Below are positions 6,618 to 39,345 of a stretch of 42,983 nucleotides of DNA, piece by piece. The stretch is taken from the IMG/VR virus record IMGVR_UViG_3300030382_004293, positions 1,156 to 44,138 of that record, one strand, 5' to 3'. The first letter of the stretch is position 1. Every line of letters starts with the position of its first letter. This stretch comes from a virus. The notes below the pieces were generated by a model. The model saw only the letters and a program-made list of their open reading frames with translations, ran no database searches and was not told the DNA's origin. The position numbers and the translations under genes were made by a program.

Positions 6618-6691
6618 AAAATAATATAAAAAATATTTTCCTAAAAAAAAAGTCTTGCAGAATTCATTTATTTGATTATATTAATTCTATA

Positions 6692-6740
6692 TAATAGAGA
6701 ACTATATAATATAGAACTTCTCTAGAGATAATCCCTATTA
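6692..6740. repeat. Palindromic element, copy A (intergenic)
   Basis: The left arm TAATAGAGA (6692-6700) is followed by one A and then the 13-base palindrome CTATATAATATAG (6702-6714). The perfect palindrome TCTCTAGAGA lies at 6719-6728 and the right arm TCCCTATTA at 6732-6740, matching the left arm in 8 of 9 pairs. The same layout recurs at 13991-14036 inside the exonuclease gene. The inner palindrome differs there by one compensatory pair. Both copies are followed by an A-rich tract. It could be a protein-binding site, a structured RNA or a small mobile palindrome. Confidence 0.5.
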
Positions 6741-6849
6741 GAAAGAAAAATTAATAATAAAAAGAAAAACACTTTTTAATTACAAAAGAAAGTTGTTACA
6801 TAATTTGAAAAATAGAGTTAGAATGGGTGTGAGTGTTATTTTATCGTGC

Positions 6850-6879
6850 AACCCCCCGTCAAAAGTCTTCTAGGGGGTT
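6850..6879. other. C/G-rich hairpin upstream of terS
   Basis: An inverted repeat AACCCCC (6850-6856) ... GGGGGTT (6873-6879), with a 16-base gap, stands out in otherwise very AT-rich DNA. No T-tract follows on either strand, so it is not an obvious intrinsic terminator. Candidate roles are a packaging-site element, a regulator binding site or a structured leader of the terS transcript. Only the repeat itself is seen directly. Confidence 0.5.
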
Positions 6880-6960
6880 AGAATTAGGTTGAAAATTGGA
6901 TTACAATCAATATTATAATTATTAATTTAATTTGATAACTTTTAAAGATAAGGAACACAA

Positions 6961-6986
6961 ACAAAAACGCCCCAACAAGTGGGGCG
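6961..6986 (-). terminator. Rho-independent terminator for the 7652-7022 operon
   Basis: On the minus strand a 7-bp stem CGCCCCA/TGGGGCG with a 5-base loop is followed directly by TTTTTGTTTG. It lies 36 bases after the stop of the last small minus-strand gene. It should insulate that operon from the packaging operon further downstream, which must therefore have its own promoter. Confidence 0.85.
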
Positions 6987-7021
6987 CTATTGTAAACAAT
7001 CGGCAATTTATTTATTATTGT

Positions 7022-7201
7022 TTAATCATCGCAACAAGCTTGAACAAATCTATGTTTATCAAAGTTATTATTATCACATACAAATATATAACTCAAATCA
7101 TTTATTAAACTTGCTTTGTTTATAGATGTTTTATTATCTATTGTATTTGTATTTTCTTTAATTGCTTTCGCTATCATCTCATAATACTTTCTACTAAGCA
7201 T
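7022..7201 (-). CDS. Small conserved-type phage protein (59 aa)
   Basis: An open frame of 59 residues with GGGGG as ribosome site before ATG 7199-7201. The pattern is a start MLSRKYYEMIAKAIKENTNT, then INKASLINDLSYIF, and an end RFVQACCDD. This matches, from memory, a short protein family common in environmental phages (an N-terminal RKxYxxIAxxI and a C-terminal FxxxC). No function is known to me. It is the last gene before the terminator at 6961-6986. Confidence 0.7.
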   Translation of the reverse strand: MLSRKYYEMIAKAIKENTNTIDNKTSINKASLINDLSYIFVCDNNNFDKHRFVQACCDD

Positions 7202-7212
7202 AACAACCCCCT

Positions 7213-20229: not shown

Positions 20230-20691
20230 ATGATGGATATATATAAACTTGTAGGCAAGAATGCCTTAATACAGAAAGGGGATAGTTGGATGCCATTAAC
20301 AGAGGGATATTGCAAAGAATATGATTTGCACGTAAAAAAAGATATGTTGTTTGGTAAGATTGGTGAGGAATTTACTGAAAAGCTATTTGAAGGTAATACA
20401 AAAATAGAAATAAAAACAGAGCGAGATATTTGGAAAAATACAGGAAATATTGCCATTGAAATTCGCTGTAAAGGTAAGCCATCAGGTATTTCTACAACAA
20501 CATCAAGTGTTTGGATGCATTTATTGGCTTATAAAGGGGTCATAGAGGGCGGATTTATATTAAAGGTAGATAAGCTTAAGGCTAAGATAAAAAAGCTCCA
20601 AGAAAGCGGTAATTTAAAAATGGTCATGGGGGGAGATTTTAACGAAAGTCAAATGGTATTGCTACCAATTAAGGAATTATTTGAGGATTAA
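20230..20691 (+). CDS. PD-(D/E)XK-type nuclease
   Basis: About 153 aa from ATG 20230; a TTG at 20221 and an internal ATG after GGGGATAGTTGG are alternative starts. The core is GKIGEEFTEKLFEG, then IEIKTERDIWKNTGNIAIEI, then KPSGISTTTSSVWMHLLAYK. The E-x-K in IEIKTE with the upstream Glu matches the PD-(D/E)XK active site. From memory this resembles a family of small nucleases in environmental phages (with 'KTErd.w..tGNiaie...GkpSGi'). It may act with the resolvase in processing DNA. Its stop overlaps the stop of the opposite giant gene by 3 bases. Confidence 0.7.
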   Translation: MMDIYKLVGKNALIQKGDSWMPLTEGYCKEYDLHVKKDMLFGKIGEEFTEKLFEGNTKIEIKTERDIWKNTGNIAIEIRCKGKPSGISTTTSSVWMHLLAYKGVIEGGFILKVDKLKAKIKKLQESGNLKMVMGGDFNESQMVLLPIKELFED

Positions 20692-23600
20692 TATGGGTAT
20701 ACTGAATACTTATTTCTCCATTTATGATTATTTATTATCTTATTAAGTCTCCTCACTTTCATGTAGTATGTTTTTTCTAAATCAAGGGCAAGTTTTTTAT
20801 TCTCAGGGGAAAGGTAGTTTAAAAATTCATTTCTCTTTGAATCAATCCTATATTTACCTTCATCAGAAACATTTATTGGGTTCATATGTTTAATAACAGC
20901 ATTAAGGGCTTTTGTAGCTTCTTTTATTCTTTTATTTTTATAAGTAATATTTTTAATTGATTCAGCTTCATTGCATATAGCATTAAAAGCAGCATAGTAT
21001 ACTCTTGCAATTTCTTCATCTGACTTTCCTAATATTATAGCTTGTTTTAACTTATGATAATATGGCTGTCTATTTGAAAGTATTTGAGCATGTGGTTTTG
21101 TATATCCCATTTGTTTTTGAAACTGACTCGAAAGAGTTTTAATTCTAACATCGCCTACTGCGTAAGGATGTGTCATTTTTTTCCAAGCTTTTTCAGCTTG
21201 AGAAAATATAACAATAGTATCAAGTGAAAAATCTTTTAAAGCTTGGTCAACACCTTTTCCGTATTTTAAAACAGATAACATTTCGTTTGAAGCTGCCTTG
21301 ATATTTCTAAGAACAACTGGCTCCATTAAAGGGTTTACGTTCTGACCATAAGGAGATAGCACTTCACCAAATACTCCAAGCATTTCACCTCTCCATATAT
21401 TTGCCATAATTTTATCAATAGGTTCACTTTCTTCCACTGGTATCTGTTGTCCTAAAAGCTTGTCGTACATAAAGAAAAGTGATGCTCCTGCCATGCCATG
21501 GCCAATAGTTGCTTTCAGAAGTGGAGCTATATTACGATTTTTAAGAGGTTTTATATAATTTTTATAACTGTCAATAGTTACTGAGGCTGCCATTCTTTGG
21601 AAAAGGGTAAATGGTTTTGCGTATTTACTTGACATCCATAAGGGCAAATCTCCTACTCCAGTTGCACCTGCGCCAGCTTTATGAGATTGATGTCCTACCC
21701 AATCTAATATATCTTGATACCTTTTAGTTCCTTCTATATTTTTTCCTTCTGTTATAAATTTAATATCAGATTCATTTAATTTCCATGTTTCTTTAAACAT
21801 TCTTAATACTTCTGCTTTTTTACCTTTTGGATGAAATAGAGACTTATATCCTTTTGCTACATTAGCAAGCTCAGCGAAATGAAGTCTCCCTGCTTCTGCT
21901 AAAATTATTCTATTAAAATTTTCAGTTTGTGTCATAAGATTAACATTTTCAAACCAATATTTGATAAGAGCTGCTTCTTTTCCTGAGCCTGTTTCTGCAA
22001 TAATTTCTTTTTGTCCATATCCAGTTTCACCTCTTTTTATAGCTTCTCTAAAAGCGTTAGGATTTCTCCATGAATGTAAAGCAAATTTTACAGCTTGAGC
22101 TGTATTTCTTGTTCCATATAATGCAACACTTCTTGGTATTTGTATAATAAGGTTTTTTATACCAGATAAAGGAGAGGATAATCCAACCAAAGCTGATACA
22201 TTTGTTATTTTACCAGCCCAAGTTTGAGGTTTGCTTGTAAGAATATCCTTCATACTATAATCCATACCTAATTGAGTTTTTATAAGTTGATAAGCATAAG
22301 CTCCTATTTCTTGATTCTTAGCCATAGCATCAAGTGTTCTTATTTTTTGATTTGCTGCAATAGAAAATTTACCAGCCAACTCAGTAAATTCTGGGAAATG
22401 ACGAACAGTTGCAAGAAATTTAGACATTCCATTTACATAATGATTCATTGTTCCATCAAGACTTGTTTCATATGATTTTACAAGTTTTCTTCTTCCATCT
22501 TTTGTTTTAATTTCAATATACTCAGGTAAAGTATTTCCTCTTTCTTTAAGAAAGGCAGGTTTAACTTTTGCTGGCCCGTATTCGAACATAGCCATAATTT
22601 CATTTGCTACAAGGTTATTAAGCGCTTCGCTTTCCTTTTTCATAACAGCTTCGTATTCTTTTGAGCCTTTTTGAAAATCAAGTGCTTTTGCTGCTTTTTC
22701 TAAATCTTTTTTTGATAAATCTTTAAGGTTATCTTTAATCATTCTTTGTATTTCAGTAGTTTCTGTATTAATATGCTCAACTACTTCTCTTCTTACTCTT
22801 CTCACAAAATAATTTTGAAGAAATTTAGAATTTAAATCAGACATTATTTTATCAAATTCTCTTTGTCCTTTTGTATGTCTTGATATTTCAACTCCTAACT
22901 GATTCCAATACCAATTAGATATTTCTCCCCATATTTCTCTTGCCTCAGAGTATTTCCCTTGTTTAGAAAAATCAAGAACTGCATTTTTTGCTTCATTATA
23001 TTCTATTGTAAATTTTCCACCATATTTTTTAGATAATTCTTCTAATTGTTTTAATGAATTTGCAGAAAGCTCAGGGTCTATTAAATGCATAAATTTTTTC
23101 TTAAATTTAGAATCAGTAATCACTTCATTAATTCTTGAAATCGCAACTTCTCCCTCTCCCTTAAGTCTTGTTCTTGCATAATCATGCATATCAAGAGATT
23201 CAGCTATTTTTTCAAGACTTTTTCCAGCTTTTCCACCTATTTTATTTGCAGCAATTCTAAGGACATCAGAACTTGTATTAATAGCTCTTTTAAAAAGAGA
23301 AACTCCTGCGTTTGTTTTATTATTAACAATAGTATCTAATCCATCTATCATATATTCATTTGATGGTGTTACTTCTCTTCCTTTTCTTACATAGCTTCTA
23401 TATGCTTTTATTTGCTCAGGAGTTGCGTTTTCTATTGTAGTTTTAAATGCTTTTTCAAAAAAATCATTACGCATTTTTTCAGATATATCATATTTTATTT
23501 CAACTTCTTCTACAAAAACTTCATTCTTTGATAACTCTTCTGATTTACCACTAAGTCTTTTTGTAGTTAAGGAATTAAGTCTTTCATGTAATGCTTCAAG

Positions 23601-26600
23601 CTCTCCATATGTTACATCTGCAAGTTTAAGTTTAAACCCTGCACCCATTAAATCTTCTCTTAAATTTCTTATTTGTTCTTTTGTATATCCAAATCCACCC
23701 TCTTTTACTGATTTCATTAATTCATTTTCCACGTCATGAATCTGTTTGTTTTTATCAATAATACGTTTTTCAATAATTTTTGTTGGTTTTTTACCATTTG
23801 GTTTTTTAGCCATTTGATATTTCATTTTAATCTGCGATTTAACAGGTAAATAATCCATAGGAACTTTTCCAGATAATACTTTTCCACCAATTATTTCAAC
23901 AATTTCTCTTCTAGCTTTTGTGGCATCTTCTGCGTTTGTTATTCCAAAATATTGTCTTAATCTGCTCCATGCTCTTTTAACCCAAGAACCAACTCTACCC
24001 ATCATGCTTTTATTTAAAGTTTTAGCTGAATATTTACCAAGGGCTTCAACAAAAGCTTCTTCACCTTGAGCCTTAGTCATTCCTTTTTTTCTAAATAGTT
24101 TAATGCCTTGCTCAACAAGTCTCTTGCTAAAAGGGTCTCCTGCTGCTCTAAGTGCATCAACAACATGATGAGATACTTCGTGAGGAAGTGTATCAATTCT
24201 AGCTTTTCCAGTTGCAATTTTAATCAATTGCCCTTGTATTTGACCCATAATAAACTGTCCTCTTACTTTACCTAATGACTTTTCTAATTTAACTGCAAGT
24301 TGAGGATATTTCTTTTTTACCCATTCAACTTGTGCGCTTAATTGATTTTGTTTAACTATAGCTTCAGCAGATTTAAGTTGAGTTTCTAACTGATAATCTA
24401 TTGTTTTTTTGCTTTCTATATAATCTAATTTTGCTTGTGTTTCAAAAGCTTTTAAATCCCCTTTGGTTGGAGCTATCTCATTTAATCTCGGTCCAGTTTG
24501 AATCATATAATCAAACATTGTTTTAAGTGTTAATCCATCTACATATCTATTTGTTCCTTCTATTTTTATTTGGTCATTAGATTTTATATTATCTAATTTT
24601 TCTAAACCTTCCCTTATTTGCTTATTGCTAAAACCTTCAGCAAATGTTAAATCGTGTTCTTTTTTACCAGAACGAATATCTTTTATATATTGCTTTAATA
24701 TTAAATCAGCGGCAACTTTCCTCTTCCCAGGAGTCATACCAAGTTGGTATGTCTCTGCAACACTTATGTTTTGATGCCCGATTATCCACTTATCAACAAT
24801 ATGTTCTATTTGTTTAGCAGTTAAAGAATCAGCTCCCTCAATAGAGCCATCTTTTTTTGTTATAGACCATTGTTCAATTGATTTTCTAAATAACCTTCCT
24901 TCTCCAGCGGATAACTTGTCAGCACTTTTACCAAAAATTGCTCTTGTTAATATATTTACATCTTCAGTTGTTAAAGCATGATTTCCCATATCTTTAAACA
25001 TAAAGTCTTTATGTCCTTGAGGAGAATTATCTCTATTTCTAATAACTTTTTTAGAAAGATAATCAATTGAATCTATTAGTTTTTCAGTAACATATTTTAC
25101 TAAAGATTTTCCCTTACCGCTTGTTATTATCATATTATCTTTTAATTCAAGAGTGCTATATTGTCCTCTAGGAACTTGAAGACCTGGTTCATCAGCTAAT
25201 CGCTCAACTTTTTCTATTAATTTCTTTGCAAAAGTTTCAATCTTACCTTTAATGAATGGATTTTCAGCTTTAAAAACATCTTTAGGTTTTATTCCCTCAA
25301 AATTAAGTTCATCAACAATTTTCCTATAAGATTCAGCTATGTTTCTTAAAGCCCATTTAATAGTAGATTTACCTTTTATTTTCCCTCCTGATTCAACTTT
25401 AGATGAAAGCCATTGAGTAATATCTTTTTCAGTTACTTCAAAAAGACTTTTTCCTCTATCGGATAAAAATTTTGCAAAATTATCCATATGGTTTAGCTGT
25501 GTTTGAAGTGTTCCTTTTTGTCCTTTTTCCATTAAAGCTTCTCTAGCAAACTTAGCTAGTATAATTTTACTTTCATTATAAACTTTTGATTCTTTTGAAT
25601 CAGTTTTTACAATTTCTTTAGTTTTAGGGTCAAGTGTTTCTACTTGTCTATAATTTGAAGCTTGTATATCAGCATCTGTTTGTAATACTTTTCTTCTTTT
25701 AGCTTTGTCAGTAACTCCTGGTGTATTTTCAAGATAACTTCTTGCATCTTCATTAGACTCTATCTTATCTTTAACTAATTCTTTTGGTTTTGTAGAAACA
25801 ATTTGATTTGGGGTTGTTAATGTTTGTCCTCTTTGTATAACTGCCTCAGATTTTGATTTTATTTCACCTGTAGATGCTTTTGACCAATCCATAGTTTGAG
25901 TCTTAGGATTCCAACCATCAATATATTCTCCACTATCTTTTTCTGTTAAAAATTTTAAAGTATCTTTATCACCTTCTCTTATAGCTTTATTTATAGAATC
26001 TGTGAAATTTAATCTAGCTCTTTGTCTTTCAACTGGGTCTTCTTGGATATTTAAATTTTTTACATCTTCGAGATTGTTTATCTTTTGAAGTATTTCATCT
26101 CTAAATTTATCTCTTAAATCTTCCATTTTTTTAAGTTCAATTTTCGATGCATTAGTTTCAATAGGATTGTCTGTTTTAAAGTTTTTAATATTTTCATTTA
26201 ATGCACCATATGCTTCTTGTAAAAATTGATATGTGTCCATTAAATCTTTTTCATTATAACTTCCTTCTTCAATAGCTTTTTCAATTCTTTTTATTCTTTC
26301 TGGTAAATCATCATATTCTTTTCTTGAAATCTTTTTATTTTCAATTGAAGAATCAATAAAGTCATTTGTTGCTTTTTTAAGTCCTTCTGTATATTCTCCT
26401 TGTTCTTTTGTTTCTCCTGTCTCTTTTTTATTATATTCTTTTTGAACATTTTCAAGAGAAGATTGACCAGCTCTCTCTGCATCAATTCTTGCTTTTTCTC
26501 TTTGATAATAATCCTTAACAGACGTTTTAGCTTCTCCCATAAGATGATGTTTTGCCTTTAATATCCCCATCATACCAATATTTGTTGCAAAACTTTTAAA

Positions 26601-27587
26601 TAAATCTCTTGCTGTATAATCTTCATCCATTATAAGATTTTTAATTTCAGGAGCTGTAAATACACCAGCTTCAGCTAATACTTGACCACCCTTTCCTGTT
26701 CTCCAAAAACCAAGAGCTTTTTCTTCTGCTCTTGTAAGTACATTTCCTTTTTGTGATGCTTTTGCAAAAAGCTCAGCATGTTTTACATTTAAACTTGCTC
26801 CAACAAAACCAGCAGCAGCGCCCATCATACCACCATGCATTACACCATGCCCAATTCCTTTCCATACATCTTCACCATTAACAGCAGCTTGAATCCCACC
26901 TCTCGCTCCTTCAAATGTAGCTAAAGTTGCTGCTTGACCTATAGAACCTGCTGCCCTTGGAGCATATTGAGAAAATAAAGCTGAATATCCTTTTTCACTT
27001 ATAAGTTTTTCTGCTGATACTTTAGCTAGTGCTGTTCTTGTCGCAAGCTCTTCAGCTGTTTCTTTTGCTAACAATTCTTTAGTCTTTCCTTTTGCGCTTA
27101 ATTTAATAAAATTATCTACAGCAGCATCTTTCATTCCTTTACCAGCAAGAGCATTAAACCCCTTACCTGCAGCTCCACCAACCCACATTGATAAGAAATC
27201 TAATGGCATAGAAAATGATAATACAGCGCTAAAAATATCCTCTGCCATTCCAGGGTTATATTTATCTAAATTAAACCTTTGTTCTCCATTGTAGTATTGA
27301 TAAGCTAAGCCTGTTATAGAATTGTTATATGCAGATTTTGCCCAATTAGCGGAATTTTCATTAATTCCATAATCAGTCCAATCAAACAATGAATTAACGA
27401 AGTCTGGGTTTTGTTTTATTTGATATTTTGTCTTACGAGATTTAGATTTAGTTTCACGAGCCTCCCAATATGGAAGATTAGGGTCATCTTGGCTTTTTAA
27501 TTCATCGTAAATATACCTAATACTTTTAAATGCATATTCAGGATTTTCTCTTCTTTTCTTCTCTAAATAATCTTTAATTGTAGCCAT
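20688..27587 (-). CDS. Giant multidomain virion protein: tyrosine-recombinase-like region + HExxH peptidase (polyvalent/ejection protein)
   Basis: A 2299-aa protein. Residues 100-330 are Gly/Ala-rich with hydrophobic stretches (GVMHGGMMGAAAGFVGA near 250), suiting membrane insertion, and about 390-520 are coiled coil. Residues 685-770 (LNHMDNFAKFLSDRGKSLFE) look like an integrase core-binding domain. Residues 790-950 hold R807, K825, R901, H938 (WIIGHQN) and Y947 (AETYQLG); the 9-residue H-to-Y and 76-residue K-to-R spacings equal those of lambda Int. A second integrase-like phrase, MIQTGPRLNEI (R1034), follows. A zinc peptidase motif HEVSH lies at 1136-1140, with E1176/E1177 or E1181 as third ligand. 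The C-terminal 900 residues are helical, with a hydrophobic patch near 2026. By size and position it is a T7 gp16-like injected protein. Confidence 0.7.
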   Translation of the reverse strand: MATIKDYLEKKRRENPEYAFKSIRYIYDELKSQDDPNLPYWEARETKSKSRKTKYQIKQNPDFVNSLFDWTDYGINENSANWAKSAYNNSITGLAYQYYNGEQRFNLDKYNPGMAEDIFSAVLSFSMPLDFLSMWVGGAAGKGFNALAGKGMKDAAVDNFIKLSAKGKTKELLAKETAEELATRTALAKVSAEKLISEKGYSALFSQYAPRAAGSIGQAATLATFEGARGGIQAAVNGEDVWKGIGHGVMHGGMMGAAAGFVGASLNVKHAELFAKASQKGNVLTRAEEKALGFWRTGKGGQVLAEAGVFTAPEIKNLIMDEDYTARDLFKSFATNIGMMGILKAKHHLMGEAKTSVKDYYQREKARIDAERAGQSSLENVQKEYNKKETGETKEQGEYTEGLKKATNDFIDSSIENKKISRKEYDDLPERIKRIEKAIEEGSYNEKDLMDTYQFLQEAYGALNENIKNFKTDNPIETNASKIELKKMEDLRDKFRDEILQKINNLEDVKNLNIQEDPVERQRARLNFTDSINKAIREGDKDTLKFLTEKDSGEYIDGWNPKTQTMDWSKASTGEIKSKSEAVIQRGQTLTTPNQIVSTKPKELVKDKIESNEDARSYLENTPGVTDKAKRRKVLQTDADIQASNYRQVETLDPKTKEIVKTDSKESKVYNESKIILAKFAREALMEKGQKGTLQTQLNHMDNFAKFLSDRGKSLFEVTEKDITQWLSSKVESGGKIKGKSTIKWALRNIAESYRKIVDELNFEGIKPKDVFKAENPFIKGKIETFAKKLIEKVERLADEPGLQVPRGQYSTLELKDNMIITSGKGKSLVKYVTEKLIDSIDYLSKKVIRNRDNSPQGHKDFMFKDMGNHALTTEDVNILTRAIFGKSADKLSAGEGRLFRKSIEQWSITKKDGSIEGADSLTAKQIEHIVDKWIIGHQNISVAETYQLGMTPGKRKVAADLILKQYIKDIRSGKKEHDLTFAEGFSNKQIREGLEKLDNIKSNDQIKIEGTNRYVDGLTLKTMFDYMIQTGPRLNEIAPTKGDLKAFETQAKLDYIESKKTIDYQLETQLKSAEAIVKQNQLSAQVEWVKKKYPQLAVKLEKSLGKVRGQFIMGQIQGQLIKIATGKARIDTLPHEVSHHVVDALRAAGDPFSKRLVEQGIKLFRKKGMTKAQGEEAFVEALGKYSAKTLNKSMMGRVGSWVKRAWSRLRQYFGITNAEDATKARREIVEIIGGKVLSGKVPMDYLPVKSQIKMKYQMAKKPNGKKPTKIIEKRIIDKNKQIHDVENELMKSVKEGGFGYTKEQIRNLREDLMGAGFKLKLADVTYGELEALHERLNSLTTKRLSGKSEELSKNEVFVEEVEIKYDISEKMRNDFFEKAFKTTIENATPEQIKAYRSYVRKGREVTPSNEYMIDGLDTIVNNKTNAGVSLFKRAINTSSDVLRIAANKIGGKAGKSLEKIAESLDMHDYARTRLKGEGEVAISRINEVITDSKFKKKFMHLIDPELSANSLKQLEELSKKYGGKFTIEYNEAKNAVLDFSKQGKYSEAREIWGEISNWYWNQLGVEISRHTKGQREFDKIMSDLNSKFLQNYFVRRVRREVVEHINTETTEIQRMIKDNLKDLSKKDLEKAAKALDFQKGSKEYEAVMKKESEALNNLVANEIMAMFEYGPAKVKPAFLKERGNTLPEYIEIKTKDGRRKLVKSYETSLDGTMNHYVNGMSKFLATVRHFPEFTELAGKFSIAANQKIRTLDAMAKNQEIGAYAYQLIKTQLGMDYSMKDILTSKPQTWAGKITNVSALVGLSSPLSGIKNLIIQIPRSVALYGTRNTAQAVKFALHSWRNPNAFREAIKRGETGYGQKEIIAETGSGKEAALIKYWFENVNLMTQTENFNRIILAEAGRLHFAELANVAKGYKSLFHPKGKKAEVLRMFKETWKLNESDIKFITEGKNIEGTKRYQDILDWVGHQSHKAGAGATGVGDLPLWMSSKYAKPFTLFQRMAASVTIDSYKNYIKPLKNRNIAPLLKATIGHGMAGASLFFMYDKLLGQQIPVEESEPIDKIMANIWRGEMLGVFGEVLSPYGQNVNPLMEPVVLRNIKAASNEMLSVLKYGKGVDQALKDFSLDTIVIFSQAEKAWKKMTHPYAVGDVRIKTLSSQFQKQMGYTKPHAQILSNRQPYYHKLKQAIILGKSDEEIARVYYAAFNAICNEAESIKNITYKNKRIKEATKALNAVIKHMNPINVSDEGKYRIDSKRNEFLNYLSPENKKLALDLEKTYYMKVRRLNKIINNHKWRNKYSVYPY

Positions 27588-27590
27588 TTA

Positions 27591-29531
27591 TTATTTGTTT
27601 ATAGAGCTTATAGTTTTAGAACCTTCTTTAACTTTTTCTAACTCATTATATTTTTTTCGCCATTTTTCTTCTACCTTTTTGTACTCATTTAAAGCCTGAT
27701 TGAGGGTAACTAATGCACCTCCAGGCTTCGAGCCCGAACGATTAACTCCCCATTTTTTCTCATATGACGTAATTATTTTTCTTAATTCTTTTACTGCTTT
27801 TCCAGCATCGGTTATATCTTTCTGTTTAAACGTACCACCAAAAAAACCTTCTCGATATTGCCACTGATGTAGTCCACTCTTTTTAATTACTTCAAGCTGT
27901 TTCTTTGCATTTTCATATTCTATTTTATCGCCATTATGTTCAATTTTAAGTGATTTTAATTCTTCAAGATTAACTGGATTGTTCCATATTTTTTTATTCC
28001 CTAAAAGCTTGTGTAATGGTGATGCAGCACTTTTAGTTCGACCTATCCATGTAAAATTATCAGACTCATTTTTAAGTTCATTAAGCTCATTACTTATCTC
28101 TTTTACTTGTTCTTTGCCAATATTTACTTGAGCTGCTTGTTTATTAGCATCTATAATTGCAAACTTACTTTTATCATCTTCTATTTTATTATCATCAAAA
28201 GTTGATTGAATACCTCCAGGTTTAGAGTATTCTACATTACTTCCAACAATAGAGCTTAAATTTTTAGTTTCTGAGTTCCAAATTTCATTTTTAGATTCCA
28301 TTTTATTCAATAATGAAACACCTGAGTTATTAACAAAGTTTTTATCAGCCTGAAGTAAATCTTCTTTTATTTTTCCTAAATCACTATCAAGATTTAAATA
28401 ATATTGATATAATGGGTCTTCCATTTTTTCTTCATTAAGAACTTCCTTTACTTCCTCATAACTATATGATTGCATTTCTCCACCAGCTCCTAATGGGAGT
28501 TCAATTCCTGATGGTAGTTTGCTTTTTTTTGTCCATTCTTCAGAATTAATATCAGTTAAATCTATATCATCAAATATTAATCGATGATTAGAAAGATGTT
28601 CTCCCATTTTAAAATTAGAATCTATTGATTCAGATAAAGAATTTATAAGAACACCTTTAATTTGTTTGTCTCTTGTTTTAAAACTATCAATATATTGAGA
28701 ATCACCAGTATTAATTGCTTGCATATAAGCATTTTTTTCTTCTTCGTCAAAAATACCATCATCTGTTGCAGATTGTAATGCAAAATTATAAATATCTTCA
28801 GTATTTTGAAGTTGTTCAAAATCATAAGCAAAAATTGGATTACCTGTTCTATCTGAATGTTTTAATAAAAAATCTCTTTTATTGCCTGAATACTTTCTTA
28901 TCTCTCTTTCTATTTCTTGAGCAATAGACTGTTTGTAATTTTCTCTATGCTCTCCAATAGTTGATTTAAACTCATCTAATGATTTTATATATGATTGTTC
29001 ATTAGCGGAACGATTAAATTCATCTAAAGGCCCAGCATCCCAAGTTTCCCAATCAACAAACCCTATATCTTCTCTTGTTGGTATTTTAACTGACATAGGA
29101 GTCTCTACTCTTTCATTTTTATCATTAAAAGAAACTGAGTTATATGTAAAATTATCTAAACTATTAGCATTATTATATTGCTCTGTTAACTTTATAATAT
29201 TTTGACTTTGGTCTTGATGTTGTAACATATACATATTATAATCAGTATTAAGTTTTTCTTGATAGTCAAATTTTTCCTTTAAAGAATCAAATCTATCTAA
29301 AGTTTGGTCATCCATATTGCTTTTATTTTCTTCATAATAAGTATTGAATCTTTCTTTAGAATAATTAAGTTTTGTATTATCATAAGATGAAGATTGTTTA
29401 TCAAAATCATCATACACATCAAGAAATCCTTTATTTCTTCTATCTTGCATTTGACTCATTTGATTCATGATTTGCATGAGTTGATTTAACCCTGCATATG
29501 GGTCTTTCTTTTCAAATCCCTTAATCGCCAT
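27591..29531 (-). CDS. Putative internal virion/ejection protein
   Basis: A 646-aa protein of no recognised domain. It opens with a Met/Gln-rich helix (NQLMQIMNQMSQMQDRR). The rest is long charged helices with many Asn/Asp/Ser/Tyr residues, and it ends with KKYNELEKVKEGSKTIS. It lacks signal or membrane segments. It is 3 bp upstream of the giant gene and follows the 326- and 149-aa genes, the order in which T7-like phages encode internal proteins gp14-gp15-gp16. A gp15-like role in the ejection tube is inferred from position and helical character only. Confidence 0.55.
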   Translation of the reverse strand: MAIKGFEKKDPYAGLNQLMQIMNQMSQMQDRRNKGFLDVYDDFDKQSSSYDNTKLNYSKERFNTYYEENKSNMDDQTLDRFDSLKEKFDYQEKLNTDYNMYMLQHQDQSQNIIKLTEQYNNANSLDNFTYNSVSFNDKNERVETPMSVKIPTREDIGFVDWETWDAGPLDEFNRSANEQSYIKSLDEFKSTIGEHRENYKQSIAQEIEREIRKYSGNKRDFLLKHSDRTGNPIFAYDFEQLQNTEDIYNFALQSATDDGIFDEEEKNAYMQAINTGDSQYIDSFKTRDKQIKGVLINSLSESIDSNFKMGEHLSNHRLIFDDIDLTDINSEEWTKKSKLPSGIELPLGAGGEMQSYSYEEVKEVLNEEKMEDPLYQYYLNLDSDLGKIKEDLLQADKNFVNNSGVSLLNKMESKNEIWNSETKNLSSIVGSNVEYSKPGGIQSTFDDNKIEDDKSKFAIIDANKQAAQVNIGKEQVKEISNELNELKNESDNFTWIGRTKSAASPLHKLLGNKKIWNNPVNLEELKSLKIEHNGDKIEYENAKKQLEVIKKSGLHQWQYREGFFGGTFKQKDITDAGKAVKELRKIITSYEKKWGVNRSGSKPGGALVTLNQALNEYKKVEEKWRKKYNELEKVKEGSKTISSINK

Positions 29532-29533
29532 TA

Positions 29534-29983
29534 TTAATATCCTTTAATTGATTGAGCTGCTTCATGCCATTGAGACATAATATCTCTTATAGGAGTACGT
29601 GCTTGAGTCATCCTTGAACGTTCTTGACCAATAACATTTGCCATTGATTGGCCATATACATCTTTAACTCCTTGCTGTTGTCTTTGGAATGCACCACTTC
29701 CTGTAATCATTTTCTGAGCTTGAGAGCCTTCCATTCCTTGTAATAATTGTGGTAACATTGATTGTCCTGCTGCTTGAATACCAGTTGGGTCATATTTCAA
29801 TGCTTTCAACATCTCAGGAGTTATTTCTCCATACATACTTCCTGGAGCATCTTGAGGGTCAAAGTCATAATATTGTGCAAATGCTTTTCCTATATCTTGT
29901 CCACTTAAATCTGCTAATCCTTGAAAAGTTTGACCTCCAAAAAATATATCTTGATTTTGTTTCATTATATCTTCTTCAAACAT
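29534..29983 (-). CDS. Small virion protein, Gln/Gly-rich
   Basis: A 149-aa protein with GGAGG 9 bases before the first ATG (9 residues further there is a second ATG, MKQNQD). It is rich in Gln, Gly, Ala and Met (LQGMEGSQAQKMITGSGAFQ), with a helical end (RDIMSQWHEAAQSI). It lies between two candidate injected proteins, 2 bp before the 646-aa gene. It is probably a structural or ejection component; no family is recognised. Confidence 0.55.
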   Translation of the reverse strand: MFEEDIMKQNQDIFFGGQTFQGLADLSGQDIGKAFAQYYDFDPQDAPGSMYGEITPEMLKALKYDPTGIQAAGQSMLPQLLQGMEGSQAQKMITGSGAFQRQQQGVKDVYGQSMANVIGQERSRMTQARTPIRDIMSQWHEAAQSIKGY

Positions 29984-31705: not shown

Positions 31706-33141
31706 TAAAACTGAAAATCCAAACTTGCAACACCATAAGCTATTTCATTATCAGAATCATAAAAAAAAGAAATAATATCTACATGATTAGCATCTGTTGT
31801 TAAAGTAGGATTACTTCCTCCTGCAAATTTTACTGTAGCACTACCTGATGCTGCTGAACCCTCTTCTCTATCCCACACTTTATAGTTAGTTACTAGTCTG
31901 CTACCTGTACCATCTTGTTTTAATAATAATACAAAATTACCTGATGTTTTTGGAAATATCAAATTTAAATCTGTTATATTACCACTTCCAAAAGTAACAA
32001 ATTGCTTATTCCCAGTTTGGAAATCTACATCTGTATCATTTACATCGTATGCAGGTGTTTCTAAGTCAAAACCTACCGCACATCCATCAAATTCAACCTT
32101 TGTTCCTGCTACATCAAAATCTACATTTCCATCAATAGTAAAATGTAAATTAGCATTTGTAGCATTATCATCTACAGTAGTTATAGTTGTATCACCATGA
32201 GTAGTTGTTGCTATACTACAATAATCTCCTGTGTCTGCAGAACTAAGCAATTTAATATCAACTCCCCCATCATCAACTTTAGATTGAAATCCAATATTTG
32301 TATCTGCCCCTGTCACTATACTATTAATTCCATAATTAATTTGTGTGCCAGATGTTCCACCTGTTATCGCTAATTCCATTCCATAATTATTAATTTCTGA
32401 ATTAGCATGATGTGTTGGAGCATCACTACGAACAGATATTGATAAAGCTCTTGCATTAATACTTTGACCATCTCCCATTACTCCTGTTATATCGTAATCA
32501 ATAAATGTTGCTCCTGCATTTCCTCCTGTTGTCGCAGTATAGTTTTTGTCAAAAGTAAAACCTGTGTGAGAACCTGAACTTGCATCTAAAAATGTTGCTG
32601 AATTTGTTCCTGGGCTTAATAAAAGATTTCCATCAGGTGCTAAAGTTAAATGTCCTACTTCTGCTCCTGCATCTACTGTAGATATTGTTGTAGCTCCTGA
32701 TGTACCAACTGCTATAGAAAAAAAATCATTTGCATTAGTGTCATCATATATTCTAAATCTTGTATTATCACAATCAAATAAGAAATGAGAGGCAGTATCA
32801 TCTTTTATAGTTACTTGCCCACCATCAGCATTTAATTCTATATCTCCAGCTACATCTAATGTAAAATCACCAGTAGAAACATTATATTTGTTTGTAGTTA
32901 ATAATGTACTATTAATATGAAGTTTTTTAGTTAATAAATCTTTAATTGATGTTTTTTCTAATCTTTCCAAATTTTGAAGTTTATTGGATGCAAACCATCT
33001 TCCGTTTATTTTTGAACATAAATAAGTACCTTGACCTTTAATAGAAGCAAATATAATATCTCCATCATTACCTATGGAGCTTGTTGGAAATGAAGTTCTT
33101 ATTTGATTTCTTGACCCTTTTATATGAAGAAGATTTGCCAT
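31705..33141 (-). CDS. Tail fibre/structural protein, beta-rich
   Basis: A 478-aa protein. After a start MANLLHIKGSRNQIRTSFPT it becomes a chain of beta-strand repeats rich in Asp, Thr, Gly and Ala (GDIELNADGGQVTIKDDTAS; TLAPDGNLLLSPGTNSATFL). This pattern is typical of marine-type phage tail fibres. The C-terminus (TSGNFVLLLKQDGTGSR and following) looks like a trimer tip. It overlaps both neighbours by 1 base (TAATG), so it is translationally coupled with the giant stabilisation protein. Confidence 0.65.
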   Translation of the reverse strand: MANLLHIKGSRNQIRTSFPTSSIGNDGDIIFASIKGQGTYLCSKINGRWFASNKLQNLERLEKTSIKDLLTKKLHINSTLLTTNKYNVSTGDFTLDVAGDIELNADGGQVTIKDDTASHFLFDCDNTRFRIYDDTNANDFFSIAVGTSGATTISTVDAGAEVGHLTLAPDGNLLLSPGTNSATFLDASSGSHTGFTFDKNYTATTGGNAGATFIDYDITGVMGDGQSINARALSISVRSDAPTHHANSEINNYGMELAITGGTSGTQINYGINSIVTGADTNIGFQSKVDDGGVDIKLLSSADTGDYCSIATTTHGDTTITTVDDNATNANLHFTIDGNVDFDVAGTKVEFDGCAVGFDLETPAYDVNDTDVDFQTGNKQFVTFGSGNITDLNLIFPKTSGNFVLLLKQDGTGSRLVTNYKVWDREEGSAASGSATVKFAGGSNPTLTTDANHVDIISFFYDSDNEIAYGVASLDFQF

Positions 33142-36100
33142 TATTTTAATGATTTTTCTCTGTATATAATTGTAATATCATTTATTCTAAAATCAACTGC
33201 AGGCTTATTATCTCCATACCCTAAGGCTAAAAACTGTAATTGAAAAGAATATATATTATTTATTGCACTAGAGGGAGTTAAAATAGCTGTTGCCCAAGTT
33301 GTAGAACCAGTAAATCCAGTACTTGCTGCATAATTTGTACTATCATCACTAAATGCTGAAAAAGAATTAACACCATTAACAGAAAATTTACATAAAACTT
33401 TAGAATTTGCAGAAGAACCTCCAGAATCTTTTGATGTATAAGTTATATAAACTTTATATATTTTCTTTCTTTTTGCAATATCTCCAAATGTAAAATCTTT
33501 TGTTGTAAAGTAATAATTTCTTTGATTTAATTTGCTTGATGTTGTAAGTCCTCTTTGAGCTGCTAAGTCTTCATCATTACCCTCAGATGGTTGCCATTGA
33601 AGAATATCATTTATATCTAAACCTGTTCCAGCTCCTCCAGATGTGGTTGTTTTTTTAACATAAGATATAAGATTCCCATCTTTATCAGTAATAAAATTAC
33701 TCATATCACCACTACTTGTTTCAGCTGTTAATCCTTGGAAACTGCGATGTGTAAAATACCAAGATTTAGTAGGAATATTATATACAGCTCCATCTAAGAA
33801 ATTAATTGTTGGTCCACCTTTTTTTATATGCCTTGCTATAACTAAGTCTTTTGTATTAAAATTATAACCTATATTCCCAATATTGTAATCTTTATTTGTT
33901 CCCATCGATATAGGCCAATTAGCACCACTTTCTAATTTTTCATCTTCTGAACTTGGTATTTTATTATCTATAAGATTAATAGCTCTTGAACCATCATATA
34001 AATAACAACCATTTGAATTTATCCAAGCAATTCCATAAGGAGTTTTTACTACATTACATGGTAAAGATACTCCTGCTTGCTCATAAGTTTCTTCAATAAA
34101 TTCATAATCTCCCGATATATTAATAATATATACTTTATTTTTTTTGAATTGAAGTAATTTATCTTTAAATGATGCTAATGCTGTTATTTCATCTCCATCA
34201 TTATTAGCAACATCTATAAAATTTGATGATGGTAATATATTATATTTATTAACTGGAGATTTAATCATTCTATCTTCATATGAAGTACCATTTTGTTTTA
34301 TATTTCCAACATATAATCTATTATTTGCTACTGTTGATGTTTTATATTGACATATTAATTCTTGAATGCTTTTATTTGCGTGATTATTACTTACTAATGA
34401 TGTCTCAGATTCATAACTATCAATTTCATTATATGAAAGCATATGTTCTCTTTTTAAGCAATATCCATAAGAAGTACCTTCAAAGTCTTGACCTTCTGCA
34501 AAACCACTTGATGTTGTAGAATAAGCTCTATTATCTTTCAAATCAACATAAAATTGAAGATACCATATATCACTTGTAATATCTTTCATATAAAATTTTA
34601 ATTTATTTCTATATATATCTTCTGCTACTTCTTTTCCTACATATATATCAACTGTTGGACATTTTCCCGAAGTTATATTAGATTCATGATTATCAACTGC
34701 TGCGCTAGTTCCAGCGCCAATTTCTAAACCACCAGCTATCTCTAAATTAGATTCTTCACCATATATATTAACAGAACTTACTCCAACTTTAAATATTCTT
34801 CCTTCCCATCCAAATACTTCTGAAGATGAATTTGATGAAGGTGAATCAAAATTAAATAATGTTCTTGCAATCGCTGAATCCATTGCTCCAACTTCAAAAT
34901 CATCATTATGAAAATAAACATCTATATTTTTAAATATAATTCTTTCTTTTCTTGCAAAATCCCATTTATTATCCCTGTCATTACATTTATATTCAACACA
35001 TTTTTGTAAATCTGTAGTAGAATCTCCATTTGGATATCTCATTCTTACTTTCATCAATACACCTTGGTCAATTGGAATACCATCATCCTCAGATTTAGGG
35101 AAAGTCCAAGTTCCTTTAAATTTTTGTCTATCATATATTACATTATGGTCTTGCCCACCTGCACCTGTTTCTGAAACAGTAGATGAAGGCCAAAGATTTG
35201 AACTTGACCATTTGCCTCCTTTATCGCCATATCCATCATCCCCCCATTGATTTGAACTATTCCCAAAACGAAGGGTTGCATCTGTATTAGTAACTGATAT
35301 TTTATTTTCTATACTAGTAAACTCATTTTCAGATAATTTTCGTTGGTTAGAAACACTTACATAGTCGTCTGTGAATATATTTGTATTACTCTCACCATAT
35401 TTTCCAATTTCAATTTCAAAATATGGATGACTACTTTTTTTCCAACTACTATTTCCACTATCTGAGTCTGTTCCTTTATAAGCTGCAGCAAAATCATATT
35501 CAAATGTAAATTCTATTCTTTTAACACTTCCAGTTGTATAATCTTCCATTTCTTTTTTCATACCATGGTTTTTATCACCAGCCCATGCTAAATAAAATGA
35601 ACGTCTTTTCTCGAATGTTTCATCAAAACCACCTTTAACTCCTAATTGATTATCATGTAAAGCTCCAGTTGTTCCAGGATGTCTTAACATACAAAATGAA
35701 TGAGAATCTCCAGATTCTTTATCATCAGTTTGATAAAACATTACTCTTCCTGTATCTTGAGATATATTATTACCACTAGAATCAGTTATTTCACTACCGC
35801 CAGCAGAACCACCACCAATATCTCCTAAAGGCCATCCCGTATCTTTACCATCAAATTCTTGAGTTGTATAGCCATCTCCACTTTTCCCAAAAGTATATTT
35901 ATTAATATAATATAAAGCATTAAATGATTCATTTATTTCACTTTGTTCATTTCCTTCGAATGCTTCCAATGAAGGAGGTTTAGATAATGGGAAATTTCTA
36001 GTATACCATCCTTTTGTTATAACATTTCCATTTAATTTTGATGTATCATTCCAATAAAATAATTTACTAGTATTACCAGATTCAAAATTAGCATCAGATA

Positions 36101-39065
36101 TTTTAACCATTCCATTAATATAATCATATACAGGTTTTGCATTAGGATTATCAAATACTATTTCATTTTCAATCCAATTATTCATATTATATGAATATAT
36201 ATTTATTCTTGAATCTTTTGATGTATTATCATTTAAAAACAAAAGGTCATCTTTGCGATTTTTAGATTCAAGTTTTATTCCTCCTAAATAAACTGTCTGA
36301 TTATCTGAATCATAAGTTGAACCATCTTGCCTCCCCCATCTTCCTGCATGTAAATTTAAAATCCAATCACTTACTGTATTAGAATCAGATGGAACAGTAA
36401 ATGATGTTTGATATTTCATCCAAGTTAATTCTCCACCTAAATATGCTCCTCCCTGAGTTAAAGAAGGATTCATAGATAATAAATCTGGATAAGATTTTCT
36501 TAATGTTATTCCATCTAATTTAATAGTTCCATAAGAAGTTGCAAAAAAGTCTGTATTTGCTAAAGCAAAAGCAATCATTAATTTTCTTCCAGAGCCTTTT
36601 ATTGAAAGTGGGTGAACTCTAGTAGCTCCAGTTCCATCCAAATCAGTTAATTCTGTATTACCTGAAACAAAAAATTTATAAGGTTTAGGTATATCTCCAT
36701 CACTATTTTGTCCTAACATTCTATAAGATGTCTCATTATCAGTATTTAGCATTGTAGATTCTGAACCCCAGGGTGTTATATTTTTTGCTGTATAAAGAAC
36801 ATCATTGTCTGAAAGAGCTGTATTTATTCCTCCTTCAAATTGCAATGTATGCATTCCAGTATTTGATGCTGAATCTCCAGTATGACATGTTTTTGTTGGT
36901 ATACCAATAAAATTTCCATCTCCATCAAAAATCATCTTACCAAGAGTCTTATGGTCAATATGTTGAGATGTTTCATCATCATCGCTTCCAAAAGAACATT
37001 GTATTGTCCCACTATCAGCAGCTGCTATTCCACTCCCATTATTAACTGTAACAGTCTTATCATTTACTTTTAATTCCTCTAAAGAAGAACAATCAAAAAT
37101 AGCGAAGTCAATTCCCGTAAATATACCATCATCAATTAATACTTGACTTCCTTGGCCCATTAAAAAATTTAATTCATACCAACAATTATCATCAACGAAT
37201 ACCTCTTGATATATGAAATTATTTCTATATGCAGGGCCACCACATAATGAATTTCCATATATAAATAATGAATTTCCATTCCCTCCAGCACCCTGAGTAT
37301 AAATATATTTTTGTAGAATATTACTCGATGGAAGCGGAACAGCGACAGTTCCTACATTTTCACCCCAATTTGGTAAATACATCGGAGTATCATATGCTTT
37401 CCACCCAGTAGGAGGTCGTGTACCTGTTGATGCAGCATTATGGTCATAACCTGCATTAGAACTACCACTTTCAAAATCTCCATTATTAATAAAATTTGTA
37501 GTTATATTATCAAAATATCGATATTCTGTAGCATCGTTAGTTCCTTCATAAATATCTCCTCTAATAAATTCTGTATGTCCATCTCCTTGTTGTAATACAA
37601 GACTTGTAGCTGTTGTTGTATTTGTAAGAACTCCTGCTGTATTTGAATATAATTGAACAAAAGGTATTCTTTCAGCTTCCCCATCAACAAATAAAACTGT
37701 ATTATCAAGTAAATCAACATGTATTCCATGCTCAAATACTATAGTATTAATATCAGTTACAGATGTACAAACACCAATAAATGTTCCATCAGCATAATAT
37801 ATTTTTTTACCTTTTACAAGAGCGTTAGTTGCATTTGTTGTATCAGTTGTAACTGTTACACTGCTTGTTGTTGCTGAATTAGTACCTTCATCAACTAATA
37901 TTCCTGTAGTTCCAATTCCTTTAGGCATTATATATAATGCTATATCATTGGCTATAGCAGAATTAACTCCACCAGAAAAACCTAAAGTTTGTCCACTATT
38001 AGTTACTGAGGAGCAAGTTCCTAATTCAACTCCAGCTGATGTAAATATTCTATGTCCGACAAGAGATGGCCATAAACGAGCATCAACTGTATCTACATTA
38101 AGAGTATCACTACTTGTTGTAGCACTTACAGTTTCGTTTGTTATTATTCCTGTATTAAATACTTGCAATCCACCTGTTGCTGCTCCTTGAGCTCCATTAG
38201 CTATTAATCCCTGATATCTATTTACACATTTAGCATAAAAAGATAAAGTATATTCAACCCCAGGTTGTAAACTAAGATTTCCAAAACTTAATGCATCAGT
38301 ATCACTATGTTTAAAAGTTGCATCTTTATCTGGATTATAAGTAATAAAACCTAAATCCATAGATTGATTATTTGCTTGAGCATCAAGTGATTTACTTCTA
38401 AAGAATAATCCTGTTTCATTATCCTGATTATAATTATCTTCATCATCACCTGAATAAGATGATGCCCCAGCTTTATCTATATAATCTATATGATTTTGAT
38501 TTCCAAAATAAGCTCCATCATTTATCCAATTAAATATCATATAACTTGAATCTGAATCTGGATTAGTTCCAAAAGCAGATTCTAAATCAACTACTTTAGA
38601 GCTTCCAGTATAATCTGTTATTCTTCTTACTTGTCCGCTTCCTGACCCTAATTCACCATCAATATTACTTATCAATAAAGATTTATTATTAAAATGGTCA
38701 TTATCATCATAAAGACTTGCAGCTATATAAGGAGATGTACTTGCCAATTCAGCAGAAGCAACTCCAGATTCTTCATATGACCGAAATGTACCGATATCAT
38801 ATGGAATTATATCACCACCTTGTATTATAGTTATTTGATTATCAACTGATACACCAAATAATCCATATCCTGGCTCAAAATTTGAATTATCATGAGGAAG
38901 ATTTCTTATATTTTCAAATAAAGCTCCCCCCATTTTTATTATTCCTTCTTGTGAAACACATGCATTCCATGATAATGCAAATTCATTATCATCTATATCT
39001 CTTGGGTCAGAATAACAATTGAATCCACCAGCAAATTTATTTAATTGTAATGATTGCTTAGGCAT
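33141..39065 (-). CDS. Giant tail/DNA-stabilisation protein with inserted repeats
   Basis: A 1974-aa protein. The N-terminus (LQLNKFAGGFNCYSDPRDID, residues 6-25) and the C-terminal part (NNRLYVGNIKQNG; ITALASFKDKLLQFKKNKVY; GVSLPCNVVKTPYGIAWINS) are like P22 gp10-type packaged-DNA stabilisation or tail-hub proteins with a propeller-like fold. Between them lie over 1000 residues of insertions: a ~50-residue beta unit repeated three times (about 325-375, 415-465 and 705-755; pattern 'GK.I...DG.FIG.CTSVT...L.FEGGI...L.DND.LY') and carbohydrate-binding-like segments (NFINNGDFESGSSNAGYD). It probably closes the portal and contacts the host surface. Confidence 0.7.
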   Translation of the reverse strand: MPKQSLQLNKFAGGFNCYSDPRDIDDNEFALSWNACVSQEGIIKMGGALFENIRNLPHDNSNFEPGYGLFGVSVDNQITIIQGGDIIPYDIGTFRSYEESGVASAELASTSPYIAASLYDDNDHFNNKSLLISNIDGELGSGSGQVRRITDYTGSSKVVDLESAFGTNPDSDSSYMIFNWINDGAYFGNQNHIDYIDKAGASSYSGDDEDNYNQDNETGLFFRSKSLDAQANNQSMDLGFITYNPDKDATFKHSDTDALSFGNLSLQPGVEYTLSFYAKCVNRYQGLIANGAQGAATGGLQVFNTGIITNETVSATTSSDTLNVDTVDARLWPSLVGHRIFTSAGVELGTCSSVTNSGQTLGFSGGVNSAIANDIALYIMPKGIGTTGILVDEGTNSATTSSVTVTTDTTNATNALVKGKKIYYADGTFIGVCTSVTDINTIVFEHGIHVDLLDNTVLFVDGEAERIPFVQLYSNTAGVLTNTTTATSLVLQQGDGHTEFIRGDIYEGTNDATEYRYFDNITTNFINNGDFESGSSNAGYDHNAASTGTRPPTGWKAYDTPMYLPNWGENVGTVAVPLPSSNILQKYIYTQGAGGNGNSLFIYGNSLCGGPAYRNNFIYQEVFVDDNCWYELNFLMGQGSQVLIDDGIFTGIDFAIFDCSSLEELKVNDKTVTVNNGSGIAAADSGTIQCSFGSDDDETSQHIDHKTLGKMIFDGDGNFIGIPTKTCHTGDSASNTGMHTLQFEGGINTALSDNDVLYTAKNITPWGSESTMLNTDNETSYRMLGQNSDGDIPKPYKFFVSGNTELTDLDGTGATRVHPLSIKGSGRKLMIAFALANTDFFATSYGTIKLDGITLRKSYPDLLSMNPSLTQGGAYLGGELTWMKYQTSFTVPSDSNTVSDWILNLHAGRWGRQDGSTYDSDNQTVYLGGIKLESKNRKDDLLFLNDNTSKDSRINIYSYNMNNWIENEIVFDNPNAKPVYDYINGMVKISDANFESGNTSKLFYWNDTSKLNGNVITKGWYTRNFPLSKPPSLEAFEGNEQSEINESFNALYYINKYTFGKSGDGYTTQEFDGKDTGWPLGDIGGGSAGGSEITDSSGNNISQDTGRVMFYQTDDKESGDSHSFCMLRHPGTTGALHDNQLGVKGGFDETFEKRRSFYLAWAGDKNHGMKKEMEDYTTGSVKRIEFTFEYDFAAAYKGTDSDSGNSSWKKSSHPYFEIEIGKYGESNTNIFTDDYVSVSNQRKLSENEFTSIENKISVTNTDATLRFGNSSNQWGDDGYGDKGGKWSSSNLWPSSTVSETGAGGQDHNVIYDRQKFKGTWTFPKSEDDGIPIDQGVLMKVRMRYPNGDSTTDLQKCVEYKCNDRDNKWDFARKERIIFKNIDVYFHNDDFEVGAMDSAIARTLFNFDSPSSNSSSEVFGWEGRIFKVGVSSVNIYGEESNLEIAGGLEIGAGTSAAVDNHESNITSGKCPTVDIYVGKEVAEDIYRNKLKFYMKDITSDIWYLQFYVDLKDNRAYSTTSSGFAEGQDFEGTSYGYCLKREHMLSYNEIDSYESETSLVSNNHANKSIQELICQYKTSTVANNRLYVGNIKQNGTSYEDRMIKSPVNKYNILPSSNFIDVANNDGDEITALASFKDKLLQFKKNKVYIINISGDYEFIEETYEQAGVSLPCNVVKTPYGIAWINSNGCYLYDGSRAINLIDNKIPSSEDEKLESGANWPISMGTNKDYNIGNIGYNFNTKDLVIARHIKKGGPTINFLDGAVYNIPTKSWYFTHRSFQGLTAETSSGDMSNFITDKDGNLISYVKKTTTSGGAGTGLDINDILQWQPSEGNDEDLAAQRGLTTSSKLNQRNYYFTTKDFTFGDIAKRKKIYKVYITYTSKDSGGSSANSKVLCKFSVNGVNSFSAFSDDSTNYAASTGFTGSTTWATAILTPSSAINNIYSFQLQFLALGYGDNKPAVDFRINDITIIYREKSLK

Positions 39066-39213: not shown

Positions 39214-39345
39214 TTATTTCTCCTTTATTTTTTTTTTACATCTTTCACATCTAACAAAATCTCTTATTGGATGTGAATCTTTTTCAAGTATATATAATCT
39301 TTTCCTTATATCTTTAAGTTCATCTTCAAATTGTTTTTTCCACAT
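39214..39345 (-). CDS. Small hypothetical protein with CxxC (43 aa)
   Basis: A 43-residue frame. A charged helix (MWKKQFEDELKDIRKRLYIL) is followed by CERC and a Lys-rich end. A single CxxC could bind zinc only as a dimer. It abuts the next gene directly (TAA then ATG) and lies in the small late gene cluster. The ribosome site is weak, so coupling to the upstream gene is likely. Confidence 0.55.
   Translation of the reverse strand: MWKKQFEDELKDIRKRLYILEKDSHPIRDFVRCERCKKKIKEK

Follow-up and report, generated by a model that had tools for sequence, protein, structure and literature searches.

The 42,983-nucleotide stretch of viral DNA analysed here (the window) carries an open reading frame for a protein of 2299 amino acids, P0001, among the genes for virion proteins. 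Motifs in its translation raise the question whether a phage could deliver a tyrosine recombinase, together with a zinc peptidase, as part of a protein that enters the cell with the DNA. In our assessment, P0001 is probably an ejection-type protein in gp16 position, encoded by an uncultivated marine podovirus-like phage and carrying a permuted tyrosine-recombinase module and a zincin-like peptidase.

The frame of P0001 has no internal stop codon and is likewise open in the parent record (50,391 bases). The open reading frame of the original prediction is thus real, with the strand to be given as minus. Its assignment to the giant virion-type proteins is supported; the gene is located at the end of a structural operon, behind small proteins similar to gp14 and gp15 of phage T7. 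The gene closes a long minus-strand block that also encodes the terminase, a P22-like portal, the capsid, a tail fibre, and a 1974-aa protein. Downstream of the 1974-aa gene in block order, three genes precede that of P0001:

29989–30969, minus strand: 326-aa Gly/Met-rich gp14-like protein (from synteny)
29534–29983, minus strand: 149-aa small protein of the same cassette (from synteny)
27591–29531, minus strand: 646-aa gp15-like ejection-protein candidate, directly upstream of P0001 (from synteny)
20688–27587, minus strand: P0001, 2299-aa virion-type protein in gp16 position (from the open frame and marine relatives)

In related contigs, a comparable set of three upstream genes, or the gp15-like one of them, was found, and the homologue of the 646-aa protein adjoins the giant gene upstream in relatives of canonical as well as permuted domain order (see below). 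Gene order, relative sizes (small, approximately 650 aa, giant), and the terminal position within the structural operon correspond to gp14-gp15-gp16 of T7. In contrast, sequence similarity to the T7 ejection proteins was not detectable, P0001 is larger than gp16, and no match supporting gp16 homology was found in PHROGs or in 50,697 phage records. Because of its gene position, P0001 is implied to be a gp16-like ejected protein. T7 gp16 carries a transglycosylase, in place of which P0001 contains the putative recombinase and peptidase.

Searches with P0001 by phmmer against the PDB, in PHROGs, and by exact-peptide scans found nothing. The 50,697 phage records gave no match in tblastn with P0001, L131, L096, or L115, and 84,980 cellular genomes contained no homologue at the sensitivity used. 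Relatives were reached via the portal gene, which led to many marine contigs and to the giant proteins in their records. About 25 giants of 2150 to 2800 aa were collected, a few of them cut at contig ends; P0001 shares 26–44% identity with its relatives, which are found in uncultivated marine viral contigs. A tyrosine-recombinase module occupies the same slot in nearly all giants inspected and is usually followed by a zincin motif. In 13 relatives (type 1), the module has the canonical order of core-binding domain, R..E, sheet with Lys, second Arg, GH, and Tyr, the second Arg being lost in a few of them. In 12 members including P0001 (type 2), the module is permuted, and this arrangement is common to a whole group of related ocean phages.

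The gathering cut-off of PF00589 (Phage_integrase) was reached by no single sequence, and G000 gave no hit. The profile of the canonical-order relatives matched XerA (E 1.1e-6) and a XerC-like protein (E 0.0015) in the PDB, and XerD and IntI4 more weakly; a profile built from permuted members only found nothing there. In hhalign, where each E-value refers to a single comparison, the permuted profile aligned with the canonical one at 94.8% (E 4.9e-8), with a P2/lambda/Cre set at 76.9% (E 2e-5), and, built from 12 members, with 15 diverse recombinases (FimB/E, XerC/D, five E. coli prophage integrases, lambda, Cre, HP1, P2, and two others) at 95.6% probability (E 1.1e-8; 4.5e-7 for the core without the core-binding domain). 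The original prediction had named profile searches as the place where the resemblance might fail, and in the profile–profile search recombinases were found. The core-binding-like stretch it had described is real, too: PF13495 (residues 677–759) and PF02899 (687–742) match P0001 below the cut-off, the domain exceeds the Pfam cut-off in the relative L131 (2.8e-6), and the crop of residues 660–769 aligned with canonical-order relatives at 94.5% (hhalign). At the sequence level, P0001 is thereby supported as the carrier of a divergent module of the tyrosine-recombinase type, with the following elements:

25278–25559, minus strand: core-binding (SAM-like) domain, residues ~677–770 (weak PF13495/PF02899; hhalign)
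25158–25196, minus strand: canonical first-Arg slot, degenerate, residues 798–810, with Q804 at the Arg column and R807 within it (alignment)
25086–25154, minus strand: predicted beta-sheet hairpin, residues 812–834, with the Lys K825 (AlphaFold2; K column)
24849–24902, minus strand: second Arg motif GEGRLFRKS with R901, residues 896–913 (R901 invariant in 12 relatives)
24741–24785, minus strand: IIGHQNISVAETY, with H938 and the putative nucleophile Y947, residues 935–949 (conservation)
24456–24635, minus strand: apparently relocated first-Arg (RI) block, residues 985–1044, TGPRLNE, with R1034 and E1037 (conservation; column shuffles; AlphaFold2)

Five catalytic residues had been proposed for this module. 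Four of them, K825, R901, H938, and Y947, are located exactly at these positions and coincide with the catalytic K, R, H, and Y positions in the alignment of known recombinases; since they align to catalytic columns, they are not due to chance. The spacings given for them (K–R 76 and H–Y 9 as in lambda Int, R–H 15 longer) proved correct when compared with the lambda Int sequence. The fifth, R807, could not be upheld: it is unconserved among 11 relatives, the profile sets Q804 at the first-Arg column, and conservation rules R807 out as the first Arg. The canonical slot contains Arg in L092, L103, and L093 and Gln in P0001, L099, L101, L104, and L125. Y947 is retained in at least 11 of the 12 type 2 members, with a one-place shift in L097; the catalytic Lys is near-invariant, and the H938 column is occupied by His in seven and by Asp in five of the 12. 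The whole R-K-R-H-Y set is kept by most canonical-order relatives. In P0001, the catalytic set most likely comprises K825, R901, H938, and Y947 together with R1034. The module shares with tyrosine recombinases (XerA/XerC/XerD, lambda Int, P2/HP1 Int, FimB/E, Cre) the SAM-like core-binding domain, the three-stranded sheet with Lys, the second-Arg helix, and GH...Y at lambda spacing. It differs from them in the helical first-Arg block past the Tyr, in the Arg (R898) that replaces the His of the HxxR motif, and in its location below Pfam cut-offs within a virion-type protein of 2.3 kaa.

Structures were predicted with AlphaFold2 using 12 sequences, for residues 660–1062 (pLDDT 73, pTM 0.65) and for residues 797–1050 (pLDDT 84, pTM 0.87). 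The hairpin of residues 812–834 has three strands in both models, and from the sheet through the Tyr helix, the predicted elements follow one another as in recombinases. In the shorter model, the relocated block (pLDDT 86–97) is part of a single domain with the core. In the proposed permuted domain, the usual active site would be made up of R1034, K825, R901, H938, and Y947; this assembly is the weakest point of the proposal. Foldseek searches with the longer model gave Cre structures as top hits (E 0.04–1) and the SroF repressor as the second hit, none of them significant; nothing significant was found in the viral library, and no recombinase was among the hits listed for the catalytic-only model. 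Foldseek compares structures in linear order and cannot join permuted pieces, but a collinear part of approximately 150 residues might still have given a hit, and the missing match counts against the proposed module.

The module might also be a recombinase-derived DNA-binding domain that has lost recombination, comparable to SroF, and that holds or condenses DNA during ejection; the moved or decayed first Arg would then be a sign of lost catalysis. The exchange of Arg for Gln in the canonical slot of five members, the Asp replacing H938, the SroF hit (not significant), and the faster evolution of the module compared with the rest of the protein agree with such a role. On the other hand, R901 and R1034 are invariant and Y947 and the Lys near-invariant across very divergent relatives, and the full catalytic set persists in most relatives of canonical order. 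A purely DNA-binding function is therefore rather unlikely.

In P0001, the position of the first Arg before the beta-sheet is occupied by Q804, and the RI-type Arg, R1034, is located past the Tyr; for this reason, the module is classed as a permuted relative and not as a regular member of the family. R1034, 87 residues after Y947, and E1037 are invariant in all 12 type 2 members; the original prediction had overlooked this RI-type motif, TGPRLNE. All 12 share the pattern T..(T/A)M..Y(M)(I)(Q)T(G/A)PR(L/I)NE, which resembles the first-arginine segment of recombinases. The fit of this block was assessed by placing its columns ahead of the core in the profile, for the purpose of the analysis only. 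With the diverse reference, the profile score rose from 50.7 to 59–65. At a score of 64.6 for the RI block, shuffled columns attained at most 55.7, and none of the 150 shuffles reached the block. Unrelated blocks from the same proteins (174 in total) scored 51.6 on average and 60.7 at most; depending on the boundary chosen, the RI block scored 65.4, exceeding all of them, or 60.6, tying with the best. The RI block without the core did not align to the RI slot, while block plus core did. Because the invariant TGPRLNE follows the Tyr and the block surpassed 150 of 150 shuffles, the catalytic domain appears to be circularly permuted with a vestige of the earlier arrangement. With the narrower P2-like reference, the RI block scored 45.3–49.8, the degenerate native segment 43.2, and the best unrelated block 42.2. 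Because of its score with this reference, the native segment has the appearance of a degenerated copy, consistent with a duplication-and-loss route to circular permutation. The alignments suggest that the first-Arg segment, originally at the front of the enzyme, has come to lie behind the active-site tyrosine. In the open-access literature, we found no tyrosine recombinase whose catalytic domain is naturally circularly permuted.

If there were no permutation, the module would have the canonical order with a weakened first-Arg slot (TGAR in some relatives), and the TGPRLNE helix would be an unrelated conserved linker before the peptidase. The Arg retained in the canonical slot by L092, L103, and L093 is in accordance with this, as is the P2-like reference, in which the native block exceeds all 174 unrelated blocks. 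With the diverse reference, however, the native block adds nothing (50.5 compared with 50.7 for the core alone) and the later block adds 10–15, and R1034 is the only invariant residue among the first-Arg candidates. In addition, the later block is absent from the canonical sister L129, in which the early one has been kept. An unpermuted module is thus unlikely. The clearest comparison for the relocation is that of L128 with L129, L130, and L134: the permuted L128 has an RI block past the Tyr and none before it, in its canonical sisters, the first-Arg motif precedes the sheet and is absent past the Tyr, and L128 groups inside these three in the tree of the C-terminal region.

The second putative enzymatic region of P0001 follows the relocated block:

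23808–24410, minus strand: zincin-like peptidase region, residues 1060–1260, with HEVSH at 1136–1140 and E1176 (alignment A5; weak Pfam)

The HEVSH had been predicted at exactly this place, and the giant protein does contain a zinc-peptidase motif of the HExxH plus E kind. In alignment A5, the first His, the Glu, and the downstream Glu are invariant in 10 sequences, and the second His is substituted in L126. HEVSH and the conserved distal Glu are shared with zincin metallopeptidases such as SprT-like proteins and the MPTases of polyvalent proteins; in contrast to known zincins, the region scores below the cut-offs of the zincin-family profiles in Pfam, and SprT-like matches were weak and sub-threshold in six of 10 relatives. 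Polyvalent proteins are thought to be processed by a zincin-like peptidase (Iyer et al., 2017, PMC5512222). By analogy, our best guess is that the putative peptidase processes the giant protein. P0001 resembles polyvalent proteins in its very large size, its several disparate domains, its location beside virion genes, and the zincin-like peptidase, but differs in that no LPD or other listed Pfam domain was detected. Neither "recombinase" nor "integrase" appears in the main text of Iyer et al. (2017).

Taken together, P0001 would be packaged and enter the cell with the DNA, where the peptidase would clip the polypeptide and free the recombinase, which could nick and rejoin DNA via a 3'-phosphotyrosine. 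The virion-delivered recombinase would most likely act on phage DNA, most likely the incoming genome, either converting terminally redundant DNA into circles or separating multimers; that circularisation is its specific task is a tentative guess. If this is true, site-specific DNA strand exchange could start before any phage gene is expressed, which would bear on the handling of incoming DNA by podoviruses that have headful-type packaging genes and no integrase. Studies of active-site assembly would also gain a new scaffold, together with a series of natural permutations (canonical L129/L134 compared with permuted L128). A separate PF00589 integrase gene was absent from the 23 records of the group, some of which are fragments, and both sub-threshold PF00589 matches in these records lie within giant proteins. 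In L096, a second, sub-threshold PF00589 match (7.7e-4) near the C-terminus (residues ~2020–2087, G035:8480–8680) is probably due to chance. No phage delivering a tyrosine recombinase as a virion protein was found in the open-access literature.

The same superfamily chemistry could instead serve a topoisomerase-IB-like swivel that nicks and reseals DNA without site specificity and relieves torsion during ejection or early transcription. In some jumbo phages, a topoisomerase whose catalytic domain belongs to the recombinase superfamily has been reported (PMC7824862), and a search for inverted repeats identified no recombination site, yielding only AT-rich palindromes that are probably chance occurrences. 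The adjoining SAM-like core-binding domain, however, is typical of site-specific recombinases, and the relatives' sequence matches in the PDB are Xer recombinases and not topoisomerases, which makes a swivel unlikely. That a structural domain without recombinase ancestry resembles these enzymes by chance is very unlikely and was already disfavoured, as the lack of significant Foldseek hits and of Pfam hits above the cut-off in P0001 itself is opposed by the profile–profile match to known recombinases (E 1.1e-8) and the independent PDB sequence hit of the canonical-order relatives.

One palindromic element in the window is shaped like a recombinase core site: a 14-nt imperfect inverted repeat with a 6-nt spacer (TTCACATCTAACAA/TTATTGGATGTGAA) at 39244–39277, in the interval that separates the 1974-aa gene from the next listed ORF. 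It is likely due to chance, since 45 such pairs occur in the AT-rich DNA.

The tree of the C-terminal region forces three changes of type, and whole cassettes have therefore probably been exchanged. Canonical and permuted cassettes appear to have been swapped in the same slot between close relatives, namely L128 and L129/L130/L134 as well as L097 and L094/L095. The wider proposal, a widespread marine phage lineage delivering a permuted tyrosine recombinase in a processable ejection protein and swapping both kinds of cassette in this slot, seems to us evenly balanced. In two pairs, dN/dS values of 0.29–0.35 indicate purifying selection on the recombinase module. Between L101 and L104, residues 690–1075 changed at approximately twice the rate of the rest (dN/dS 0.35), and the zincin region is unchanged in protein sequence.

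The capsid gene is divided between the two ends of the contig, and the genome is therefore circular or circularly permuted. Close to these ends, L232 and L233 (at the ends of G000) contain short masked runs (X residues), which suggest assembly joins; the sequence flanking the run in L232 is repeated. The beta-rich structural protein of 1974 aa (33141–39065) is without a Pfam or PHROG match and has relatives in several contigs. Exonuclease, Sak annealing protein, DnaB helicase, and DNA methylase genes are located in the other gene block. Between the gene blocks, an AT-rich noncoding region with overlapping palindromes (6618–7212) is a possible origin or control region. A 2OG-Fe(II) oxygenase gene (PF13640; 15813–16547) is located in the early block, near the DNA methylase gene.
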